NCBI GenBank assembly: GCA_028554795.2
Contig: CM068838.1
Location: forward strand, 124,627,928-124,691,927
Length of the DNA stretch: 64,000 nucleotides
From: Sinohyriopsis cumingii
Lineage: Eukaryota; Mollusca; Bivalvia; Unionida; Unionidae
Direction: 5' to 3'
The notes under the pieces are model-generated. The model was given only the letters and a program-made list of their open reading frames with translations, had not been told where the DNA came from and did no database searches. Made by a program: the position numbers and the translations under genes. Below, piece after piece: positions 4,805-61,984 of the stretch (position 1 is the stretch's first letter; each line of letters opens with the position of its first letter).

Positions 4805-5440
4805 ATGACTCGAACACTTGAAGACTCGGGAAAAGGTGATGTTATCCCCAATCATAATTATGAACCAACACAACAAGAGGGAAGTGCCTTGATGACTGAA
4901 AATAAAATAAAACAGCATAATGGAGCAGCACACACATGTTACCGTTTTGTGGATGAGACAAAAGGATCACGATCAAGAAATGCTTTTTCGGACTCTAGTA
5001 TTGCAAACAAATGGTACTGTTGCCACTCAACGAGCTGTGGGATTATGGCCCAGGCAATAATCGCTGGAGGAAGCATCGCAGGAAAAAACAAACTATCTTC
5101 AAGTGGTTTTGAATCAGTACAGACGTATGGACGCCATGATTGTGCTGGAAAATCGAAGTGCATTAATATCTCCATTTCAATCTCAATTGTGGTGAACATT
5201 GGGCTTATGGTAGCGGTAGCTCTTCTGGCCACAAAAATTGGAAAGACAGGAGTGATCGACACAAAAATGTGTCCCTTACTACAGTTACCGAAAGATTTTA
5301 TAAAAGACTCAATTTGCTTACCCTGCAACTATTTAGGGTTTAATGTGAAGGTCGAAGACACGTTGTTTGACGTTATCTCGTCTTGTGGTTATACGTTTTG
5401 CTGTGTTAAAAACGGTGCTCTCCAGAAATTTATCCTTCTT
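4805..5440 (+). CDS. TNF-superfamily ligand gene A, exon 1 (tail, membrane segment, Cys-rich stalk)
   Basis: First coding exon, 212 codons, ending at a GTAAGT donor in phase 0. The whole model is 4805-5440, 7057-7084, 10097-10210 and 11822-12204. All phases match and it encodes 386 residues. The product is a type II membrane protein: a ~115-residue polar cytoplasmic tail, one hydrophobic segment at ~119-143 ('ISIVVNIGLMVAVALLA'), then an extracellular stalk with C-x2-C-x-YLG (171-178) and SSCGY-x2-CC (192-200). TNF-family ligands trimerise and signal to TNF receptors in immunity and apoptosis. The stalk module is shared with the paralogue at 36 kb. The ATG at 4805 is the first in a frame that opens shortly upstream. 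Confidence 0.85.
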
Positions 5441-6176
5441 GTAAGTTTCCGTGGTCTATTTGACTGCATGTCTCTGTCTCTTCCGCGCGCGCATAAATGA
5501 AATCCTTTTCCGAATACAAATTCATATATTACAAATATTACACGTTTATAATGTTTTGCTGCCTTCTAATTTAGACCTTTAATTTTAAAGCATTCTTTAT
5601 TCATGACCCTCAAAAGTCTGGCAAATTTGAACATTATTAATGGGTCCATACGACTGGTTAAAGAGATACTCTCATCTAACCTCCCAACTGCAGACACTTA
5701 CTTTTTACATAGCACAAACACTGAGGACTCTTGGCGTGAACAGATGTGTCGCACAGGATGATATTGTTGTCTAAATACTCTTTTTTCGTTTATCATCGAG
5801 TTACAGAAAAAATAAAATTACATTGTTTTCAGATATACGTTAGAGTCTTCTTCTAGGAAGACAAAATCATAAGATTATGCCACATAATAACAATAAAAAG
5901 TTCACTATCATATTTATTACGCCAACATTTAATTCGTTAAGCAAAGTCCTGTGAGATAAAAACAGAAAACATATGTACATTGTTCAGTGTAAGTTCGCTT
6001 TATGCGGGGATTTACCATAAATTGCCCGAACATGAAAGTCCCTCAGAGCTGTATTTTCATCGTATTATAATTTGAAGATGCCTCTGTCTTTTGTCTGTTT
6101 TTATAATTTTGTACATTCATGTCATAACAGCGTAAGCTGATAGAGTCGTTCAAATAAGTTATAAGGTAAGAATGTC

Positions 6177-6424: not shown

Positions 6425-6760
6425 GTGTGTGTGTGTGTGTATGTGCGATTTGGATTTTTAACGTAGCTTTAACACTTTTTCAGTCATATCGCTACGATGT
6501 CTGCAGTGTGGCAGGTTATAGTGATGTCTAAAACTGGGGCATCATGCCGCAGACATGTAGCATGATGTCCCTCCCAGTCACATTATCCTGACACCAGACA
6601 GACCAGTCCTAACACTAACCTCTTAATGCTGATCGCCAAGCGAAGTAGCTGTAAGTACCATATTTGAAAGTCTTTGGTATGACTCGGCCGGGGATCGAAC
6701 CCACGATCTCCCGCATCCAAGACGGACGCTCTAACCACTAGGCCACCGGAGCGGTCACAT
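6425..6760 (-). mobile_element. tRNA-derived SINE, copy 1
   Basis: Read on the minus strand, it starts with a tRNA-like head (A-box-like TGGCCTAGTGGTTAGAGC, B-box GGTTCGATCCC). A conserved ~180-bp body follows (GTTAGGACTGG..., GTCAGGATAATGTGACTGG...), then a 3' end GTTAAAAATCCAAAT and an (AC)n tail. The target-site duplication GATTCATGT flanks it (6416-6424 and 6761-6769). It lies in intron 1 of the TNF ligand gene, opposite to transcription. Confidence 0.85.
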
Positions 6761-9184: not shown

Positions 9185-9445
9185 TCAACAAGTTTTGCAA
9201 GATAATAAATAATCATCGCTTTCATATAAAAAATTAGAGAGATCCTCAGTTCTTCTTTAATATTTCAGCATATTTTAATACTAATATTCACTCTCTACTA
9301 GATTTTGATTTCATCCCAATAGATATTGTGCGTGGAGACATGAATCGACTCATAAAAGAAAATTATTGGATTCATAAGTTAGATACTTTGTATCCTAGTG
9401 GCCTTAATAGCAATTCACTATTATACAACTGTATAAAATGTTAAT
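9185..9445 (+). mobile_element. degenerate Penelope-like (GIY-YIG) retroelement fragment
   Basis: It aligns by eye with 37360-37680, where the same stretch still reads as a GIY-YIG-like frame ('HVGQTLQQVSKRMNDHC'). Shared landmarks are TTGGATTCA.AAGTTAGATACTTTGTA and CAATAGATA.TGTG. This copy has lost its frame. Confidence 0.6.
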
Positions 9446-10210: not shown

Positions 10211-11781
10211 GTAAGAAGGGCGGTATACCTTTTTAACAACAGAGAAGGTAGATTTGGTACTGTTTGATGTTCAATATCCCAATATCGTTGATATAGTGCA
10301 ATATATAAAAAGTATCAGTAATACTAGCTACAAATAATACTGTTTAACAGTGTAATGCTGTCTCATCTGTTATTATTATATGCTCATTTTTGCCCCGTTA
10401 ACTTTACATTGTCAGAATCGTTCAATATTCCCCGATACTGAACGCGCGAGACAATACACATATAGCATTCACGTGAATAAAGGAACTACTTTCTATTGTA
10501 AACAAACAATGGACGCAGACGCCAGAACTTTTGATTTGTAAACAAATCATGTACACTCGCGTCAGAGGCTCTTTATGTTGTGGTTGTTTAAATTTGTTTC
10601 TGAATGAACTAAAACATGTTTCGTGGACTGCAAAAAAACCCAGCTGTTTTGGCACATTCCGCATTCATACAATGTTACGGATTTAGGCTAGCTACATTAT
10701 ATAAAAGACTGAAGATAAGGTCCTTACAAATAACATACAAGTGACAAGGCATATACTGTCTTCTTTAGCTGGTGATAAGAATGGCAAAATAAAATATACT
10801 TACAGTTTTACATCCTGAATTTCCTCAAAATGTATTTTCTTAATTCTGTAAATCCGAATTACATGAGCCGTATCAGAGGTTTTCAATCTGGATTACACAT
10901 TTCGAAATTGTGCTGTAATTTCTCATCCTCCTCACTGCACTCAAAATGAAATAAGCATTAAATTCCATAGCGTCTTTTTGATAATTGCAATTGAAAGACT
11001 TCATATTTTTCCCACATTATGATTTCAAACATTCAATGACAGAAACAGAAACACATTTGCAGACGTAAACACGCTTCTCCCGCGCCACTTCAATCCGATG
11101 TATTTCATGTATAATTTGCACAGATGAATCCAGTCCAAAATCACAAACTTTCGTCAAATCGAAACAAAATACCAAAATATATTCATTCCAGATCAAATGG
11201 AAAAGTTGTTGCAATGCGCATTCATTCACAATATGACTGCAAATTTCAATTTTAAGTAGACACGCCATTTTCTTTCGAAAGTTATGTCGAGCGCGCGACT
11301 AAGTTCAAATTTATCTGGGCGGAGTTATGTGCGCATTAATAATGATGTCATTGTGTAATGACAAATCTGCGCTTGTGTATTTAGTTTGGAATACGGCATT
11401 CATTCATTTACGTTGTTTCTTGTAGTGTATTTAGTTTATATAATTAAACCTTAGGTAGAATTAAAAAAATGAGCATATAAAAAAAAGGTTACTGCATTTG
11501 TATGGGAAAATATGAACTCGTTTTGTCGGAAGGATATACTGCACTCCCAAGGTCGTGCAGTATTCCATCCCAAAACTCGTTCATATTTTCCCATACAAAT
11601 GCAGTAACCTATAACTACAATGTTATGACGGGATTCCTGAAGAAGTAATAGTCAAAATGTTTCGTTTCTTCCGTGATTTTTTTCAGTTGTGTGTACTTTT
11701 CTATTGTTTATAACCCTTCCTCCTCCTTTTGTCTTTATCTCTTTTCATGCCATCTTCTTTTTTTTCTTCTTCTTCTTTTTT

Positions 11782-11818
<37 letters not shown>

Positions 11819-11821
11819 CAG
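10211..11821. other. intron 3 of TNF ligand gene A
   Basis: No genes. It contains a pair of 15-bp inverted repeats TATATGCTCATTTTT (about 10376-10390 and 11466-11480), the fold-back at 11486-11610 and an (ATT)n tract just before the acceptor (11785-11818). Confidence 0.6.
11486..11610. repeat. fold-back palindrome
   Basis: Perfect 32-bp arms (11486-11517 and 11579-11610, beginning AGGTTACTGCATTTGTATGG). Further inverted matches continue inward (CTGCAC...GTGCAG). It could form a long hairpin in DNA or in the pre-mRNA. Confidence 0.9.
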
Positions 11822-12204
11822 AGAAGCTGACCTGGCAGACTGATGCTGGATATGGCTCGGCCTTCACGCAAGGTATAACCTTGACACCAGAGTCCAGATT
11901 ACAGGTGCCACACGCCGGATTTTATTTTGTCTATTCTGTAGTGACGTTTAAATGCCAGTTGGGATCGGCGTCGCGTGTCCATATGATTACCCGGCAACAC
12001 AGAGGTCGTCCGAATGCGGGTGTTCAGCCGCTCTTGTTGAGTAAGACAAGTGAGTGCAGACCTGGCGGAATCTATACCAGCTTCCTAGCAGGCGTGCAGA
12101 GCTTGAAAAGCAACGATGAATTGTCCGTGAACCTGACAGATGTTTCATTGACTAGTGTGTACAAGGCAACACTCTCAAATTATTTTGGAGTTTATTTAAT
12201 ATAA
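11822..12204 (+). CDS. TNF ligand gene A, exon 4 (TNF homology domain, stop)
   Basis: 383 nt, starting after an (ATT)n-CCAG acceptor in phase 1 and ending at TAA. It encodes the core of the TNF homology domain: 'LTWQT' strand, 'RLQVPHAGFYFVYSVVTF' (the L-x-V-P-x-x-G-x-Y-x-V-Y-S family signature), a Cys pair (VTFKC and SECRP) likely forming the domain disulphide, and a terminal 'NYFGVYLI' strand. Length and last-exon position are typical of the family. It shares most motif residues with the exon at 38664. Confidence 0.92.
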
Positions 12205-35978: not shown

Positions 35979-36527
35979 ATGCTGCTACAAAGAAAGGAGC
36001 ACGAAGACCAACAGCCTGGCTGTAGTTGTCACTGTCAAGTAGACGAAACCAAAATGTGTGGTTCCGAAGATAAATCTTTGGATTCTTTTATCTGTATTAA
36101 CGATAAGTGTTATTGCCAACCCAGTCTAGAGCCGAATGGAAAATACAGCCTCGCAGGGGAATGTAACTCGGTAAAAACCGAAGCAAGTTCTCAAGACGTT
36201 ATCACAGGAAAGAGGTGCAAACTTCTTACAAAGGTTGTACGACAGAATAGCATTCATATCTGCCTGGCAGTTTCATTTGTGGGAAACATTGTGCTCATAG
36301 GAGCCGTTGTACTTCTAGCCACCAAAATTGGAATGAATACTGAGAAAGGAGAAAATTGTGAATTGCAGCAGTTACCAAAAGAGATTTTCGAGAACTTAGT
36401 GTGCGTACCTTGTGACTATTTAGGGTCAAAGGTGACTGTGGAAGAAACCTTGTTTGATGTTGTTTCATCATGTGGATATCAAGTTTGCTGCGTGAAAAAT
36501 GATGCCCTTCAGAAGTTTGTTTTGCTC
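35979..36527 (+). CDS. TNF-superfamily ligand gene B, exon 1 (tail, membrane segment, Cys-rich stalk)
   Basis: 183 codons ending at a GTGAGT donor in phase 0, exactly as in gene A. The tail is Cys-rich (CSCHC near residues 15-19, plus MCG, CIN and CYC). One hydrophobic segment follows at ~ residues 88-110 ('ICLAVSFVGNIVLIGAVVLLA'), then the stalk with LQQLPK, C-x2-C-x-YLG and FDVVSSCGY-x2-CCVKN-x-ALQKF. From 'LLATKIG' onward it aligns with gene A without gaps in the cysteine block. A (TC)n/(TCTG)n tract begins six bases after the donor, so the listed open frame beyond 36527 is intronic. Confidence 0.82.
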
Positions 36528-36532
36528 GTGAG

Positions 36533-36550
36533 TCTCTCTCTCTCTCTCCC

Positions 36551-36594
<44 letters not shown>

Positions 36595-36595
36595 G
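36533..36595. repeat. (TC)n/(TCTG)n microsatellite
   Basis: A pyrimidine-rich tract directly after the exon 1 donor of gene B. Confidence 0.95.
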
Positions 36596-37089
36596 TATTA
36601 TGGATTCAAATTAAGGCTTTTCAGAAAGAGATCTATCACGCTATGCAATGAATACGAGCTTATAGAATATATTTATGCTTTGCTTCCATCCTCGCACAAA
36701 CAATATTTAGCTATAGCTCTTGCATTTAATTAAACCAGTACATCCAGTAATCAACACTGTCCAGAAGTAACTAATATGTTTTGTAAAAAATACACAAGTT
36801 CCTATACTTTGAGGTGAAATATACATGCCATTGTGATAAAATTTTGGTTTGGGAAAGTGATAAGTTGCTGTGTTGGTATTTTATATATACAAAAAGCCAA
36901 TAATATTGTGAGACATCCATATGTCTCTCGGTTTTTCGTTCACTCTGCCCATCATTTACTTTCTTTTTCAAATCCCAAATTCAATAGAAATGAAATAAAT
37001 TTTATTGCATGCTTAGTCATATTTCTAAGGGAAGATTATTTTTGACATGCCACATTCCCCACCTCTAGTCACAAGAAAAACTATATCCC

Positions 37090-38663: not shown

Positions 38664-39046
38664 AAAATCTTACCTGGCAGACCAATGTAGGGTTTGGTTC
38701 AGCCTTCATGAATGGAATAACAATGACCCCCGAGTCCAGACTACAGGTGCCTCGGGCCGGATTTTACTACATTTATTCTGCAGTTACCTTTGCATGCCGA
38801 CCTGAATCTACGCCGATCATCCATATGATAAACCGACAACACAGAGGTCGTCCAAATGCAGGTGTTCAACAGCTACTGTTAAGAAAGAGTAATGAGTGCA
38901 GACCTAATGGTTTTTACACCAGCTTCCTCGCTGGCATGTTGAAATTGACAAGCAATGATGAGATATCCATCAGTTTTGTAGACAATTTGCTCTTCAGTGT
39001 TTATACATCATCACTTAGCAACTATTTTGGCTTATTTGTAATGTAG
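38664..39046 (+). CDS. TNF ligand gene B, last exon (TNF homology domain, stop)
   Basis: 383 nt, identical in length and phase to exon 4 of gene A, after an (ATT)n-TTTAAG acceptor. It encodes 'NLTWQT', 'RLQVPRAGFYYIYSAVTF', the Cys pair (TFAC and NECRP), 'HRGRPNAGVQ' and the terminal 'NYFGLFVM'. It is intact to TAG. The ATG at 38708 is internal and not the start of translation. Confidence 0.9.
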
Positions 39047-56127: not shown

Positions 56128-56274
56128 TTTGATGATATTCATTACTTCATAAAGAATGATATATATTGGAAGTCATATATTAGGAGTACTCATTTTAGAA
56201 TTACAATACATTTGTATTATTTCAATGAGTCATAAAATTAAACGCAACACATTTGAGTGGGAAGAATACGAGTA

Positions 56275-56520
56275 GTATAGTGGGGTACTATAGCGTCAAG
56301 GGGACTTTAATGTTAAACTAGGGGGGTTGTACCCTGGCGTCAAGGGGAATTTAACATGGGGAAATTTAACATGGATGGGACTGTAGAGCGTCAATGGGAA
56401 TTTAACATGGGAAATTTTAACATGGATGGGACTGTCTAGCGTCAAGGGAAAATTAACATGGGAATATATCGTGGGACTGTCTAGCGTCAAGGGAAAATTA
56501 ACATGAGAATATATCGTGGA
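56275..56520. repeat. 45-52-bp tandem repeats beside the second virus-like element
   Basis: About five units with the core TAGCGTCAAGGGGAATTTAA. The last two units are 45 bp and nearly identical; earlier ones are longer and contain a duplicated TTTAACATGG. The array stops ~50 bp before the first conserved motif of the second element, so it may be part of its terminal repeat. Confidence 0.8.
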
Positions 56521-56570
56521 TTATAAACACTTATACAACATGAAGAAAACCATTTTGAGGCAAGAAAGCA

Positions 56571-56616
56571 ATTTCTTTTCGAGGCCTATGAGGGACCCTG
56601 AAAAGGGCCTTTGGGT
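56571..56616 (-). terminator. histone-type mRNA 3' end (stem-loop plus downstream element), minus strand
   Basis: In the minus-strand transcript: flank CCCAAA, stem GGCCCT, loop TTTC, stem AGGGTC (one G-T wobble), flank CCTCA, then CTCGAAAAGAAAT about 11 nt on. This matches the metazoan replication-dependent histone 3' end (CAAA, six-base stem, UUUC loop, ACCCA flank, purine-rich U7-binding element). The stem starts 27 nt after the stop codon of the minus-strand gene at 56636-56869. Confidence 0.8.
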
Positions 56617-56635
56617 TTATGTTAACATCATTTCG

Positions 56636-56869
56636 TTAACACAGAGGGCATGGCATTGGTCTTCTTCTATTCCTCAAACTTTGTCTGACTTCTGGTCCGT
56701 AGATCATAACTCTCTTTAAACAGCCTTGTCTCTCCACATAAATTCTTCTTTTCCAAACGCTTGTATCCGTCATCTTGACAATGGTCCAAAATGATCTGAC
56801 ATACATGGGTAAGTCCGTTAGGAACAGCACTGACGATACGAGAATAAAGGTTTCTACGTCTGTCCACAT
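56636..56869 (-). CDS. small protein of unknown function, divergent gene with histone-type 3' end
   Basis: A 77-codon frame begins with ATG at 56869, 53 nt downstream of TATAAATA (56922-56929). A second frame over the same DNA (56667-56867) is also open and looks equally protein-like ('LTHVCQIILDHC') but has no ATG, so a frameshift in a once longer gene is possible. No family is recognised and it is not histone-like. Support comes from its promoter spacing and from the histone-type 3' end after its stop. Confidence 0.4.
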   Translation of the reverse strand: MWTDVETFILVSSVLFLTDLPMYVRSFWTIVKMTDTSVWKRRIYVERQGCLKRVMIYGPEVRQSLRNRRRPMPCPLC

Positions 56870-56921
56870 GTTTGTGACGAGAACAGGTGATCGAATGCAG
56901 CGAACTGCGGTTATTTATAGG

Positions 56922-57050
56922 GGAAGAGAGGATCGAAATGGATTGAGTTGGTTGACCAATCCAAACACGCGTTACAAAATTCAGTCACCACACGGAGTCA
57001 TTCGTCCAATCCGAAGAGAGCAGTCTGTGACGTCACATCCCCTATATAGA
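56922..57050. promoter_or_regulatory. divergent promoter region (two TATA boxes, CCAAT, CRE)
   Basis: TATAAATA on the minus strand (56922-56929) and TATATAGA on the plus strand (57043-57050) face away from each other. Between them are CCAAT at 56956-56960 and 57006-57010 and a perfect TGACGTCA at 57028-57035. ATG codons lie 53 and 56 nt from the respective TATA boxes. The layout resembles a divergent histone-gene promoter. Confidence 0.65.
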
Positions 57051-57098
57051 GGCGCTAGCGTCTGTGCGCACTCAGTTCACGCAACACCGTTTTCAATC

Positions 57099-57697
57099 AT
57101 GACGGAAACTAAGAAGACAATGAATTGGGGTGCACCGGTCGTGGAGACGATAAGCGATAAAATAGCAGTGACTACCCAAGTGAACACTGACCTACTTCCA
57201 GAAGAGGCTACTTTTAATTGGGATTTTGTAGATTTTCTTACCTCGCAAGAATTTGTTCCGGTACCAGTACCTTTGCCAGTACATTCTCCTTCTTTACCAC
57301 TCGCTGATCATTTCAAACAGAGACAGAAAGAAGAATTGGAGAAATTTATGCTGCAGCAAAAGAAGCAGAACAAGCTTTTCCTCTTCAACAACAGCAAGAA
57401 GAAGAGGCAAGAAGGAAACGACAGGAAGAAGAAGCAGCGAAGAAACAAGGTAGTGAAAGTCAAACGGTCACGGTACTATTAGACATTTTAACAGAGTTAA
57501 GAAGTCTGAAACAAATGTATCAGACTTCTTTATTACGACCGAAGAGAATAAGACCTTCCCGAGCTAAACAACCCACTCCTGTGACTACGCCTGTCGTACC
57601 ACCCTTAGTGATTTCTACCAAAACATCATCGACAGGAGGCAAACCAGAAGTAGGCCTTGGCCATGGCAAAGGCTTAAGGCAGTTAAAGTTGATTTAA
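57099..57697 (+). pseudogene. coiled-coil protein of the second virus-like element, frameshifted
   Basis: The ATG at 57099 opens a frame with an acidic/hydrophobic N-terminus ('TKKTMNWGAPVVET...') and a Pro/Val-rich patch ('VPVPVPLPV'). At about 57340-57355 the Glu/Lys/Gln-rich coiled-coil frame shifts. Downstream, the frame ending at 57697 is the protein-like one (Glu/Arg-rich heptads, then 'LLDILTELRSLKQMYQT', then a basic Pro/Thr-rich tail), while the initial frame runs on to 57482. One indel therefore separates the two halves, and the intact length would be ~200 residues. Function unknown; coiled coil and basic tail would fit a virion or DNA-associated protein. Confidence 0.55.
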
Positions 57698-57703
57698 AGA
57701 AAC

Positions 57704-57752
57704 AAATACCCAAAGGCCCTTTACAGGGTTACCCACTTCTCTCGAAAAGAGA
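57704..57752 (+). terminator. histone-type mRNA 3' end (stem-loop plus downstream element), plus strand
   Basis: Flank ACCCAAA, stem GGCCCT (57715-57720), loop TTAC, stem AGGGTT (two G-T wobbles), flank ACCCA (57731-57735), then CTCGAAAAGAGAT (57741-57753). The stem starts 17 nt after the stop codon of the 57099-57697 gene. It is an inverted copy of the motif at 56571-56616, with the same spacing between stem-loop and purine element. Confidence 0.8.
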
Positions 57753-58025: not shown

Positions 58026-61000
58026 ATGAAACGATCGCATCATTTCGTGAAGAAAGGAGAAGAAAGAAAGAGGCAGAAACGTGATGTATCGCCTCGTACA
58101 ATAGCTGAAGTCTTGGCACAAATTCATGCCAGTGATTTTGAAGATGACATGAGTGAAACAGAATCCAGACCCAGAGAGTCTTCACCTAACCAAAGTTCAC
58201 CAGTTCACATTCGAGAGACGGAAAAGTGCTCCTCTAGAAAATTTAGAACCACAGCTTACACCTACACGGTGAAGTTTAAAGATTTCATGTCCGACGTACC
58301 GTTAGAGAAAGCAGAAGGGTTCATCACCGAGGTGTGGGATTCTTTGTTAACCACACTGAAACGACAATGTCAAGCCAAAGAAGACGATCGCTTGAGACTT
58401 TCCATACATCACGGCAATTTAAAGTCCCATGTTTGGATCGAGTTTAGCAGCCCAGCAGAACTGACACCTTCCAAAGTCATCGACAAGATTCAACACGTGC
58501 AACAATCCAACGATCAGTTTCACATCACCGATGGTAAAGCGACACTGTCCATGACCCACGTCTCTCTTCCCCAAGGGACTGGACGCAAAAAGGTTTTATT
58601 GGTGGACGACCTTCGTAGTATTAAGTGTAGCCTCGTCCGAATTAACAATCCTCAAGACCACATGTGTTTAGCCAGGGCTATCGTGGTGGGACGAACCTAT
58701 GTCAACAAGAACGACACGGCGGAATGGAAAAGAGCCTGGAAAACTATTCAACAATCGGACCGAGCCAAACAACGAAATGAAGCAGAACTCCTGCTACAAA
58801 AAGCTGGCCTGTCCAAAGACACACCCTGTGGCATTCCTGAAATGCAAAAAAAAAAACAACAAGATGTCCTAGCACCACGCTACACCTTGAAAGTGCTCCC
58901 TCAAGAAGTGCGCGGGCCTCTGTTGTTTCGCGGGAAAGACTTTAAGGATGGAAAATACATTCACGTCTATTATCACGACGAGCATTTCGATGTCATTACC
59001 AGTATCACCGCATTCCTCGGATACGGTTATTACTGTGAGAAATGTGACTATGGCTATAACAATCGAGAGCAACACAAACATTGTGGTTAGAAATGCTCAG
59101 GATGTTTGGCCTCTCAACCTTATCTGGACGAAGCACAAGAATGAGTGCATTCTCCTGCTTGTCAGCGCACTTTTGACAGCCCTGCCTGTTACCAACAACA
59201 TCTAAAGACACAAGGTTCACAGCAGAAAAGTACTTGTCAACTGCTGATATTGTGTCCTACGTGTGGACAAGGCATACGTACCAATAATGCCAAGGCACAC
59301 GTATGTTCAGTAAAGAAAAAATGTCACATTTGTCACCAAATCGTGGACTTGGAACACCACTGTTACATTCAAAAATACCAACCCCAACAAGAGGAAGAAG
59401 ATGACCACCAAAAGAAAGAGAATTTAATCTTTTTCGATTTCGAATGCATGACAGTCACATTCCTAATTTCTGCGTGGCTCACTGAGCCTATCTTTAATCA
59501 TTGCCCTCACTGCAGTAAGATTACTGGAGGACGTGAAACAATATTTCGGGGAACAAACACTCTAGCCGAATTCGCTCAATGGATCTTAGACCCCATCGAC
59601 GAGACGTGGAGCCAAGAGGACATCAAACGTTACGAAGATTGTCATCGCCATGCCACGGTGATGGCTCACAATTTCTCGGGATACGATGGACAGTTTCTTT
59701 TGAGGTACTATACGGAACAAGGCACCGAACGTCCTAAAGTCACTTTGAACGGAGCCAAAATCATTTCCATGCAAGTGGGACAAGTACTGTTTAAAGATTC
59801 GATGAGCTATTTGGCGATGCCTTTGATTCGAATGCCTGAAACGTTTGGAATGACAGAAATGGCTGAAGGTTACTTTTCACACTTTTTCAATACCTAAGCA
59901 AATCAACATTCCGTTCTACCCCATTTGCCTGAGGCTAAAGACTACGACCACGATAACATGCGAAGCGAACAACGAGAAGCTTTCAACGTTTGGTACCAAG
60001 CCCGTGCCTCTGACCCTTTCGGCGTTGCTTTGGAAAATTTCGAGAACTGTTCATGGAACACGGAGGGGTCGATCCTTTGAAAGAAGCTTGCACCATTGCC
60101 AAAGCATGCTCATTAGTGTACCGCCAACGATTCATGCCTGAAAACACCCTGGCTGTCATCAGTCCTCAAACGACCAACTTTGTCAAACGTCAATACTCGG
60201 TCAAAGCCCTACGCTGGTTACATTACTTGTGCGACAAGGAAGACAAACGGATTCAGCATGCCCGCAACGGAGGGGCGAAAAGACCATCGGAACGTATTCA
60301 GTAGATGGCTGGGACATAGAAAACCCCAAGATCGTGTACGAGTTTAACGGTTGCTTATTTCACGGATGTCCGGTCTGTTACCCTGAACGTGACACTAAAA
60401 AGTTTTTACAACGAACCATGGAAGACTTGTACCAGGACACTTGTCAGCGGCGCTTGAAGTTAGAACAGCAAGGAATCCAAGTGGTGGAAATGTGGGAACA
60501 CGAATACGATCACCGTTTGAAAACTGATCCCGAATTTAAACGCCTCGTGGAAATTTACCAGTTCATGAACCCCCTGAACCCGAGGGATAGTTTGTACGGA
60601 GGAAGGACCAATGCCACCTGTTTGCTATACCAAGTCGACGAAGAGAAAGGAGAAGAAATCAAATACTTGGACGTGTGTTCGCTGTATCCTTACGTGTGCA
60701 AATATTGTCGCTTTCCTGTAGGGTACCCGCAATTGTTCACGGAACACATCGACCTGAAAAACATTCGACAATACGAAGGCTTGATCAAGTGCAAAGTTTT
60801 GCCTCCCACTGACTTGTAAAATCTGTGTTACCTCACCATTGCCAAGGAAAACTGATGTTTCCCTTGTGCCGTACTTGTGCCGAAACGTGCAATCAAGATC
60901 AGCCTTGTCAGCACACTCAGGAACAACGTGCCATGACGGGAACGTGGGTCAGCGTGGAATTGTTCAAGGCTCTGGACATAGGATACAAACTGTTAGAAGT

Positions 61001-61984
61001 GTACGAAATTTACCACTTTCCCAAGACACAACAATACCACAAGGGTGACCCCAGTCAGAAAGGCATTTTCGCAGACTACGTGGATGCCTTTTTGAAACTG
61101 ACACAAGAAGCCAGTGGCTATACTTCCTGGTGTCACACTCCCGAAGATGAAAAGACATTCAAAGAGAAATACTGGGAACAAGAAGGCATCACTTTAGACC
61201 ACATCGAGAAAAACGAAGGCAATCGTTCGTTTGCCAAATTGCTTGTGGGGCAAAATGGCACAACGACCGTGTTTACCCAAGACAGAGTATTTGACAGAAC
61301 CTTCCCGTTACTTCCAGATGATTCACGACAAAACCAAATACATGAAACATATGGACGGCTTTCGTAAGGATTTAATCTTAGCCAATTACGAAGAAGATCT
61401 GGACTTTGTACAAGCCGACGAATTTGGAAATGTCATCATTGCGGCTTACGTGACAGACCATGCTCGCTTAAAATTGTACGAAGCTTTATAACTGTTAAGG
61501 GATCGCGTCCTGTACTTTGACACGAACGGTTGCATATACATCGATCGCCCGGGTCAGCAACACCCTGACATCGAAGGAGACCGTATAGGAGCCTGGACAG
61601 ACGAGCACCCCGACGACAAGATTCAAAGTTTTGCTAGTGGCAGTCCTAAAAATTACGGCTACGAATACCGGGACCCACAAGGAGAAGTGCACACCGAGTG
61701 CAAAGTGAAAGGATTGACTCTAAATTATCGTACCAGTCGAGTGGTGAACTTTGGGGTATTGAAAGAAGCCATGCAATCTGGAGAGAATGGAAACTTTAAA
61801 GTGACCACTCACCAACCGAACAAGATTGTACGTTTACCCACTCACCAAATTGTTAGTCGACCCTTGAATAAAGTCTATCAAATTGTGTACCAGAAGCGAG
61901 TGAGGCCTTCGAATCACTTCACTTTGCCGTACGGTCACAGCGATATTGGTCAGCATATAAAAAGGGACAATATCCAAGACCAAT
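58026..61984 (+). pseudogene. protein-primed-type DNA polymerase B of Polinton/adintovirus type, broken
   Basis: About 1,320 codons long originally. The basic N-terminal region and a domain with 'LCLARAIVVG' and 'TAFLGYGYYCEKC' (58026-59090) lead into Cys/His zinc knuckles (59090-59400). The exonuclease follows with Exo I 'FDFECM' (~59440) and Exo II 'HNFSGYDG' (~59670); an Exo III Y-C-x2-D-V motif is not visible. Polymerase motif A 'DVCSLYP' is at ~60670, motif B near 61240 is split by a frame change, and motif C at ~61512-61530 reads YFDTNG where the family has Y-x-DTDS. In-frame stops lie at 59088, 59142, 59895, 60817 and 61489, and frame changes near 60040, 60240, 60820 and 61245. The element cannot replicate from this copy. 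Confidence 0.9.
61956..61964 (+). promoter_or_regulatory. TATA box upstream of small ORF 62020
   Basis: TATAAAAAG, 64 nt before the ATG at 62020, overlapping the end of the PolB reading frame. Confidence 0.5.

Follow-up and report, generated by a model that had tools for sequence, protein, structure and literature searches.

The described sequences closest to those reported here are the 3' ends of replication-dependent histone mRNAs (Rfam RF00032, Histone3). Cleavage by the U7 pathway needs a stem-loop and a purine element (HDE) together, at a fixed spacing, and the AAAGAG core of the HDE pairs with CUCUUU of U7, this being the mouse sequence and not that of the host considered here (excerpts of PMC7026596). 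On the viral side, adintoviruses carry PolB with an N-terminal OTU-like domain, a retrovirus-type integrase with a C-terminal chromodomain, a hexon that BLASTp recognizes against reference adintoviruses, a protease and small terminal genes (excerpts of PMC11071296); histone-type ends go unmentioned in those excerpts and in those of PMC11071308. The nearest precedent is a count in the portion of PMC12220804 available, which gives six Rfam matches to the histone 3'UTR stem-loop in a collection of polinton-like viruses and virophages and none in cryptophyte elements. It is a bare count, given there with no gene, HDE, spacing, host comparison or interpretation. Another animal DNA virus group with a histone connection is that of the xeno-class adomaviruses, whose Histoid gene encodes a protein with remote histone similarity (PMC11071296, in part); the connection there is a protein, whereas here it consists of RNA ends on genes for non-histone proteins. 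The open-licence PMC literature yielded no paper joining Polintons and histone mRNA, and among the matches listed no title dealt with histone-type viral mRNA ends.

Here, we analyse a window of 64,000 nucleotides from the bivalve Sinohyriopsis cumingii (contig CM068838.1, positions 124,627,928 to 124,691,927), which is best read as holding a decayed copy of an adintovirus-like, Polinton-related element. Two of its genes end in a module that shares stem, loop, flank, spacing and a purine HDE with an AAAGAG-type core with the 3' ends of replication-dependent histone mRNAs; it differs from them in standing on non-histone genes of a virus-like element and in that its processing is predicted. These ends set the element apart from the adintoviruses as described in the excerpts of PMC11071296. 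We consider it likely that an adintovirus-like virus used the SLBP/U7 pathway of its host for its terminal accessory genes, which suggests that it tied part of its gene expression to the DNA-copying phase of the host.

Histone-type 3' ends in the window

The features of the locus are as follows.

56270..56520, no strand: terminal repeat region of the element, its units resembling GTCAAGGGGAATTTAACATGG (by eye; blastn)
56572..56583, minus strand: HDE-like purine element of the minus gene, CTCGAAAAGAAA (direct reading; AAAAG 14 nt behind the stem)
56594..56609, minus strand: histone-type stem-loop of the minus gene (direct reading; RF00032, 23.0 bits)
56636..56869, minus strand: minus gene, a non-histone ORF of 77 aa, MWTDVETF...PMPCPLC (ORF; same protein in other copies)
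56910..57048, no strand: putative divergent promoter (direct reading)
57099..57697, plus strand: plus gene, a conserved non-histone protein (frame shifts in the window copy between ~57308 and 57482)
57715..57730, plus strand: histone-type stem-loop of the plus gene (direct reading; RF00032, 16.4 bits)
57741..57752, plus strand: HDE-like purine element of the plus gene, CTCGAAAAGAGA, with AAAGAG core (direct reading; excerpts of PMC7026596)
58026..59090, plus strand: N-terminal part of the PolB protein, adjoining the pair (15 relatives; P0015 among them carries PF03175)
59145..61367, plus strand: PolB pieces, disrupted by stops and frameshifts (three pieces match PF03175: 0.005, 1.3e-10, 0.044)

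Read on the minus strand, the stop codon of the minus gene (56638-56636) is followed by 26 nt and then by the stem. The module consists of CCCAAA, the stem-loop GGCCCT-TTTC-AGGGTC (56609-56594), CCTCA and then CTCGAAAAGAAA. On the plus strand, the stop codon ends at 57697 and the stem follows after 17 nt, with CCCAAA, the stem-loop GGCCCT-TTAC-AGGGTT, ACCCA and CTCGAAAAGAGA. Thus, both sites show the signature given in the preliminary description, in which CCCAAA precedes a six-base stem with TTTC or TTAC as its loop, followed by CCTCA or ACCCA as the flank and by CTCGAAAAGA(A/G)A. Its distance of 11-15 nt from stem to purines needs correction, as CTCGAAAAG begins after 10 nt in both copies; AAAAG begins 14 nt behind the stem, again in both.

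These letters are rare in the window. GGYYYTTHHHARRRYY occurs twice in the 64 kb, exactly at the two module sites (the average over shuffles is 0.25, with two reached in 3 of 100), and AAAGGCCCTTTNCAGGGT with up to three mismatches matches these two sites only (0.09 expected; none of 100 shuffles reaches two). When 1.3 kb was scanned against 4227 Rfam families, the minus copy was top-ranked as RF00032 with 23.0 bits (E 0.0012), and the plus copy reached 16.4 bits (E 0.36). Neither score attains the curated cut-off of 34, and both stems contain G-U pairs. A scan of the whole window at E <=10 lists the minus copy (E 0.06) and not the plus copy; the only Rfam match above cut-off in the window is a tRNA (6680-6752, minus strand, 34.7 bits). 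The two modules are decayed copies of the histone-type 3' end, comprising a stem-loop and a U7-type purine element. The window by itself is suggestive, short of decisive; the related places in the same genome decide.

Genes of the left end

The gene frames proposed earlier proved correct, since both the minus ORF and the plus gene are conserved in related copies. Of the 42 copies with a minus-side stem-loop, 17 (13 in clade 1 and 4 in clade 2, as defined below) have the minus protein intact as an ORF of 76-78 aa, separated from the stem by 21-26 nt; in the remainder, it is shortened or out of frame. An alternative minus frame (56670-56981) was rejected: it is without relatives, and the frame kept in the copies is 56636-56869. 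Codon-usage scoring of the frames was ambiguous and preferred the wrong minus frame. Because the frame changes inside the window copy, the plus gene was searched piecewise. The C-terminal piece matches 15 relatives (E 1.2e-40 to 4.8e-27), 12 of 193-218 aa and three shorter; the relatives of the plus protein have an NWD-VDFLSSQEFVP stretch, a helix-like stretch (LLDILAELRSLKQMYQ) and a basic RPKRKRPSRAK stretch. No Pfam family reaches the cut-off for the window ORFs of either gene, and there is no histone among them; nor does Pfam find a histone family in the 15 relatives of the plus protein. Over this range of sequences, the statement that neither frame encodes a histone holds.

The putative divergent promoter comprises a TATA box for the minus gene (56910-56919), two CCAAT boxes (56956-56960 and 57006-57010), TGACGTCA (57028-57035) and, serving the plus gene, TATATA (57043-57048). 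In the corresponding stretch of 42 copies, upstream of the plus gene, a plus-strand TATA, a minus-strand TATA and two CCAAT boxes are each found in 32, and TGACGTCA in 24. This arrangement may resemble the divergent promoters of histone genes.

The pair had been placed directly before the PolB gene, and indeed the next gene (58026..59090) is the N-terminal part of PolB. For 58026-59087, Pfam lists no OTU family at E <=1. To the right of PolB lies an ATPase-like piece with a weak Pox_A32 match (E 0.011), and the window copy, which is a decayed provirus, ends before the position of the integrase. The module is absent behind the PolB and ATPase genes, as judged from this decayed window copy only. 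Other copies have letters related to the terminal sequence at both of their ends, following the stem-loop (blastn of window positions 56200-56568 against genome loci).

Two variants of the left end were observed. Three copies (L034, L035 and L054) have about 600 bp extra between the plus-gene stem-loop and PolB, absent from the window copy. The extra stretch bears an ORF on the minus strand, with zinc-knuckle repeats of the CCHC type along with charged ones. One copy (L027) has the gene pair flipped, with the minus gene and its stem-loop facing PolB, perhaps by inversion between the two modules.

The module across the genome

The source genome measures 2.9 Gb and holds at least 150 copies of the plus protein. 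A genome-wide search for Histone3 started from 589,472 first-look candidates; 75 places were scored, all of these 75 above the cut-off (69 at 42.6-45.6 bits and six at 34.5-36.5 bits). The check by covariance model therefore turned out in two ways: 75 places in the genome exceed the RF00032 cut-off, and both window copies fall below it. Of the 75, 55 were inspected, and element genes are present at every one of them, those of the left pair at 38 and those of the right end at 17; a search of the 55 for histone motifs, run without a positive control, found none. The listed histone clusters are on other contigs than any of the 75, and none of the 75 is close to the listed C14 and C2 histone genes, the list for this comparison being 150 of 662 candidates; Histone3 matches thus carry a warning for annotation. 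The listed host histones sit elsewhere than the element, in tandem clusters; such clusters, like the TNF-domain ORFs of the window, are in keeping with an animal genome.

The 75 places were chosen by the motif itself. A second set of 30 copies was chosen by the plus protein alone, and its C-terminal end is complete in all 30. A stem-loop (at least 11 of 16 matches) stands behind the stop in 28 of them, its stem starting 25-51 nt from the projected stop, and AAAAG follows 13-15 nt behind the stem in 25 of these 28. When these stretches were letter-shuffled 6000 times, the stem-loop criterion was reached in 42 cases and stem-loop plus AAAAG in none. The plus stem-loop has been lost in two copies, L067 and L073. 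On the minus side, searched from 150 nt on, a stem-loop (at least 14 of 17) is found in 24 of the 30; in L071 it lies nearer than 150 nt, with 34.1 bits. The motif therefore recurs behind the same genes in related elements, as the preliminary description had anticipated. In 20 of the 30 loci, only seven Rfam matches exceed the cut-off, and just one of these seven belongs to the plus gene, the other six being on the minus side; many copies thus score below it.

Conservation of the module

For comparison between clades, clade 1 comprises 16 loci, all found via the motif (13 by that of the minus gene and three by that of the plus gene), and clade 2 comprises 28, with L067 and L073 (stem-loop lost) and L037 and L051 (no C-terminal end) excluded. 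Between them, identity is 0.868 in the stem-loop, 0.85 in the flank and 0.918 in the HDE, with 0.741 in the 6-nt spacer. The spacer from stop to stem is at 0.376, against 0.418 when shuffled, and so shows no likeness beyond chance. Behind the HDE, identity is 0.726 over 24 nt and 0.644 over the next 36 nt; this partial retention of the first ~24 nt has no explanation in the U7 pathway. The module, in sense orientation behind the stops, has thus been kept between the clades while the adjoining spacer was lost. Within clade 2, the module (0.86-0.95) is barely better kept than its surroundings (0.84-0.90).

Of 105 modules picked by loop, flank and HDE, ignoring the stem, 80 can form all six pairs. 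At the outer pair, 76 have G-C, 13 have A-U and 16 have another combination; A-U is the form of the right-end genes (for example, in piece L086 at 7536 and 8388) and may go back to a single event. In 100 of the 105, AAAAG begins 14 nt behind the stem, in a scan that allowed about 8-18 nt. The module is accordingly laid out as a stem of six pairs (GGYYYU/ARRRCC type) closed by a loop of 4 nt, then a flank resembling ACCCA, with AAAAG at the 14-nt distance.

Right end of the element

Two pieces of 9.9 kb, L085 and L086, carry the integrase, capsid-like genes and protease, followed by small charged genes. The integrase of L086 matches rve (3.8e-14) and has a C-terminal chromodomain (Chromo, 1.7e-4, but at 21.9 bits below the cut-off of 25.1). 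The protease is of the adenovirus type by a weak match (E 0.022), and the capsid-like genes are named by position and by eye, with no Pfam capsid match in the right-end pieces.

In L086, the motif stands 29 and 36 nt behind the first two small ORFs. The third small ORF reads through the stem-loop in L086 (stop at 9440) and stops 18 nt before it in L085, whose first small gene is without a recognizable module. The right-end Histone3 matches score 44.1, 43.8, 31.4, 31.0 and 29.3 bits, three of the five being below the cut-off. The two pieces contain no other Histone3 match, and none stands behind the integrase, capsid-like or protease genes. Pfam finds no histone family in the small genes. Taken together with the left pair, the right-end genes bring the number of gene types with the module to at least five. 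Hence, the scope of two genes first proposed was right for the pair, both members of which carry the module, and too small for the element, since small genes at the other end carry it too.

Other observations concern the small genes themselves. Kinship among their proteins was considered and dropped, as there are only weak, low-complexity matches, and we make no such claim. The two versions of the last gene, MASN..LDKM.. and MDVEY.., look unrelated and yet share the histone-type ending (L025, L029, L030, L044, L048 and L049 compared with L085 and L086). By eye, a promoter-like stretch (GGGGATGTTTTCC..TCACGT.CGCGC) is repeated in L086 upstream of 7144, 8016 and 8793, that is, of each small gene.

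Host histone ends and processing signals

The module matches the ends of one H3 and one H2B gene of the host, the two genes compared. The H3 gene of the tandem repeat (..RRIRGERA) ends in AAACGGCCCTTTTTAGGGCC..CTAGAAAAGAG and scores 35.9 bits with RF00032; the H2B gene of the repeat (..AVTKYTSSK) ends in AAACGGCCCTTTTCAGGGCC..CTAGAAAAGAT and scores 38.2 bits. In both, AAAAG follows the stem by 14 nt, the same gap as in the two window copies. Because the HDE letters and the spacing are the same, the module may well come from a host histone gene. The candidate U7-pairing letters of the element HDE are CTCGAAAAGAGAT. Neither U7 nor SLBP of the host turned up when searched for; the controls were equally silent, so this negative carries no weight in either direction.

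Within 150 nt of the stop in 46 copies, ATTAAA is found in 21 and AATAAA in eight, so that poly(A) ends are possible, and dual ends likewise. On this basis, the mRNAs could be mostly polyadenylated, the module acting only in some cell states or for mRNA stability. We regard this as improbable: ATTAAA occurs in none of the 16 clade 1 copies, and a stem-loop and HDE at fixed spacing are what U7 cleavage requires (excerpts of PMC7026596). An AATAAA lies 221 nt behind the protease gene of L086, and no other stands within 250 nt of any stop listed for that piece; this would suit polyadenylation on the capsid side.

Other explanations

The module might instead act as DNA, as an inverted near-terminal sequence for replication, packaging, integration or flipping, with its likeness to histone ends due to descent or accident. 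Modules do lie near both termini and adjoin the terminal repeat, the gene pair of L027 is flipped with the minus gene facing PolB, and the ~24 nt behind the HDE are partly kept. However, the left pair and the small genes have their modules behind stops and in sense orientation, some modules are internal (those of L086 at 7536 and 8388) and the distance from stem to AAAAG is that of host histones, which makes a DNA role less likely; the spacer from stop to stem, moreover, is not kept. Overall, we judge such a role to be quite unlikely.

A captured or decayed histone gene pair, the coding part of which was lost or overwritten, would account for the divergent arrangement, the TATA and CCAAT boxes and the histone-type ends. 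Nevertheless, both proteins are conserved in other copies without a histone match, and the module-bearing genes of the right end are non-histone by Pfam as well, which leaves this explanation highly unlikely.

Chance hairpins or terminator-like sequences, for which one might cite the same stem in a phage contig (L001) as a terminator-like hairpin and the 23 stretches in IMG/VR that matched a looser pattern, are refuted by the shuffle test (0 of 6000 with stem-loop and correctly spaced AAAAG) and by the retention of the module between clades. L001, from the IMG/VR pattern search, is a phage and no relative of the element, and the 23 stretches are by eye unlike histone-type ends. IMG/VR gave no relative of the element by PolB piece, by alignments or by sequence patterns.

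A proposed histone-type regulon

We return to the reading in which the module serves in RNA. The element probably amounts to a viral regulon built from the histone 3'-end code, in which a host module was taken, spread to at least five non-histone genes at both ends of the genome, and would give mRNAs without poly(A) that are restricted to S phase. At the left end, one divergent promoter would serve the two small non-histone genes, and the right end would contribute small tandem genes. Host SLBP would bind the stem, U7 snRNP would pair with the purine element and CPSF73 would cut between the two, following the pathway in the excerpts of PMC7026596. The expected outcome is a set of mRNAs without poly(A), produced and stable in S phase. 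Terminal accessory proteins would then be made during cellular DNA replication, and the capsid side would be expressed via poly(A). A host histone gene is the probable source of the module, which would then have passed from gene to gene within the element.

If this is true, histone-type ends would be known for the first time from a set of animal mRNAs that encode proteins other than histones. A virus family with the histone code on non-histone genes would break the existing rule and would show a new way for a DNA virus to read the cell cycle. It would also give a natural test of the action of the module when moved to other genes.

Other features of the window

Positions 1-2639 hold the end of a second, different Polinton-like element, with an integrase (rve), a Pox_A32-type ATPase and a protein with phospholipase A2-like and DUF5679 domains. 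Finally, two TNF-family ORFs, each after a similar ORF with no Pfam match, lie among 4805-5500, 11689-12204, 35979-36614 and 38708-39046; these pairs look like a duplicated host gene.
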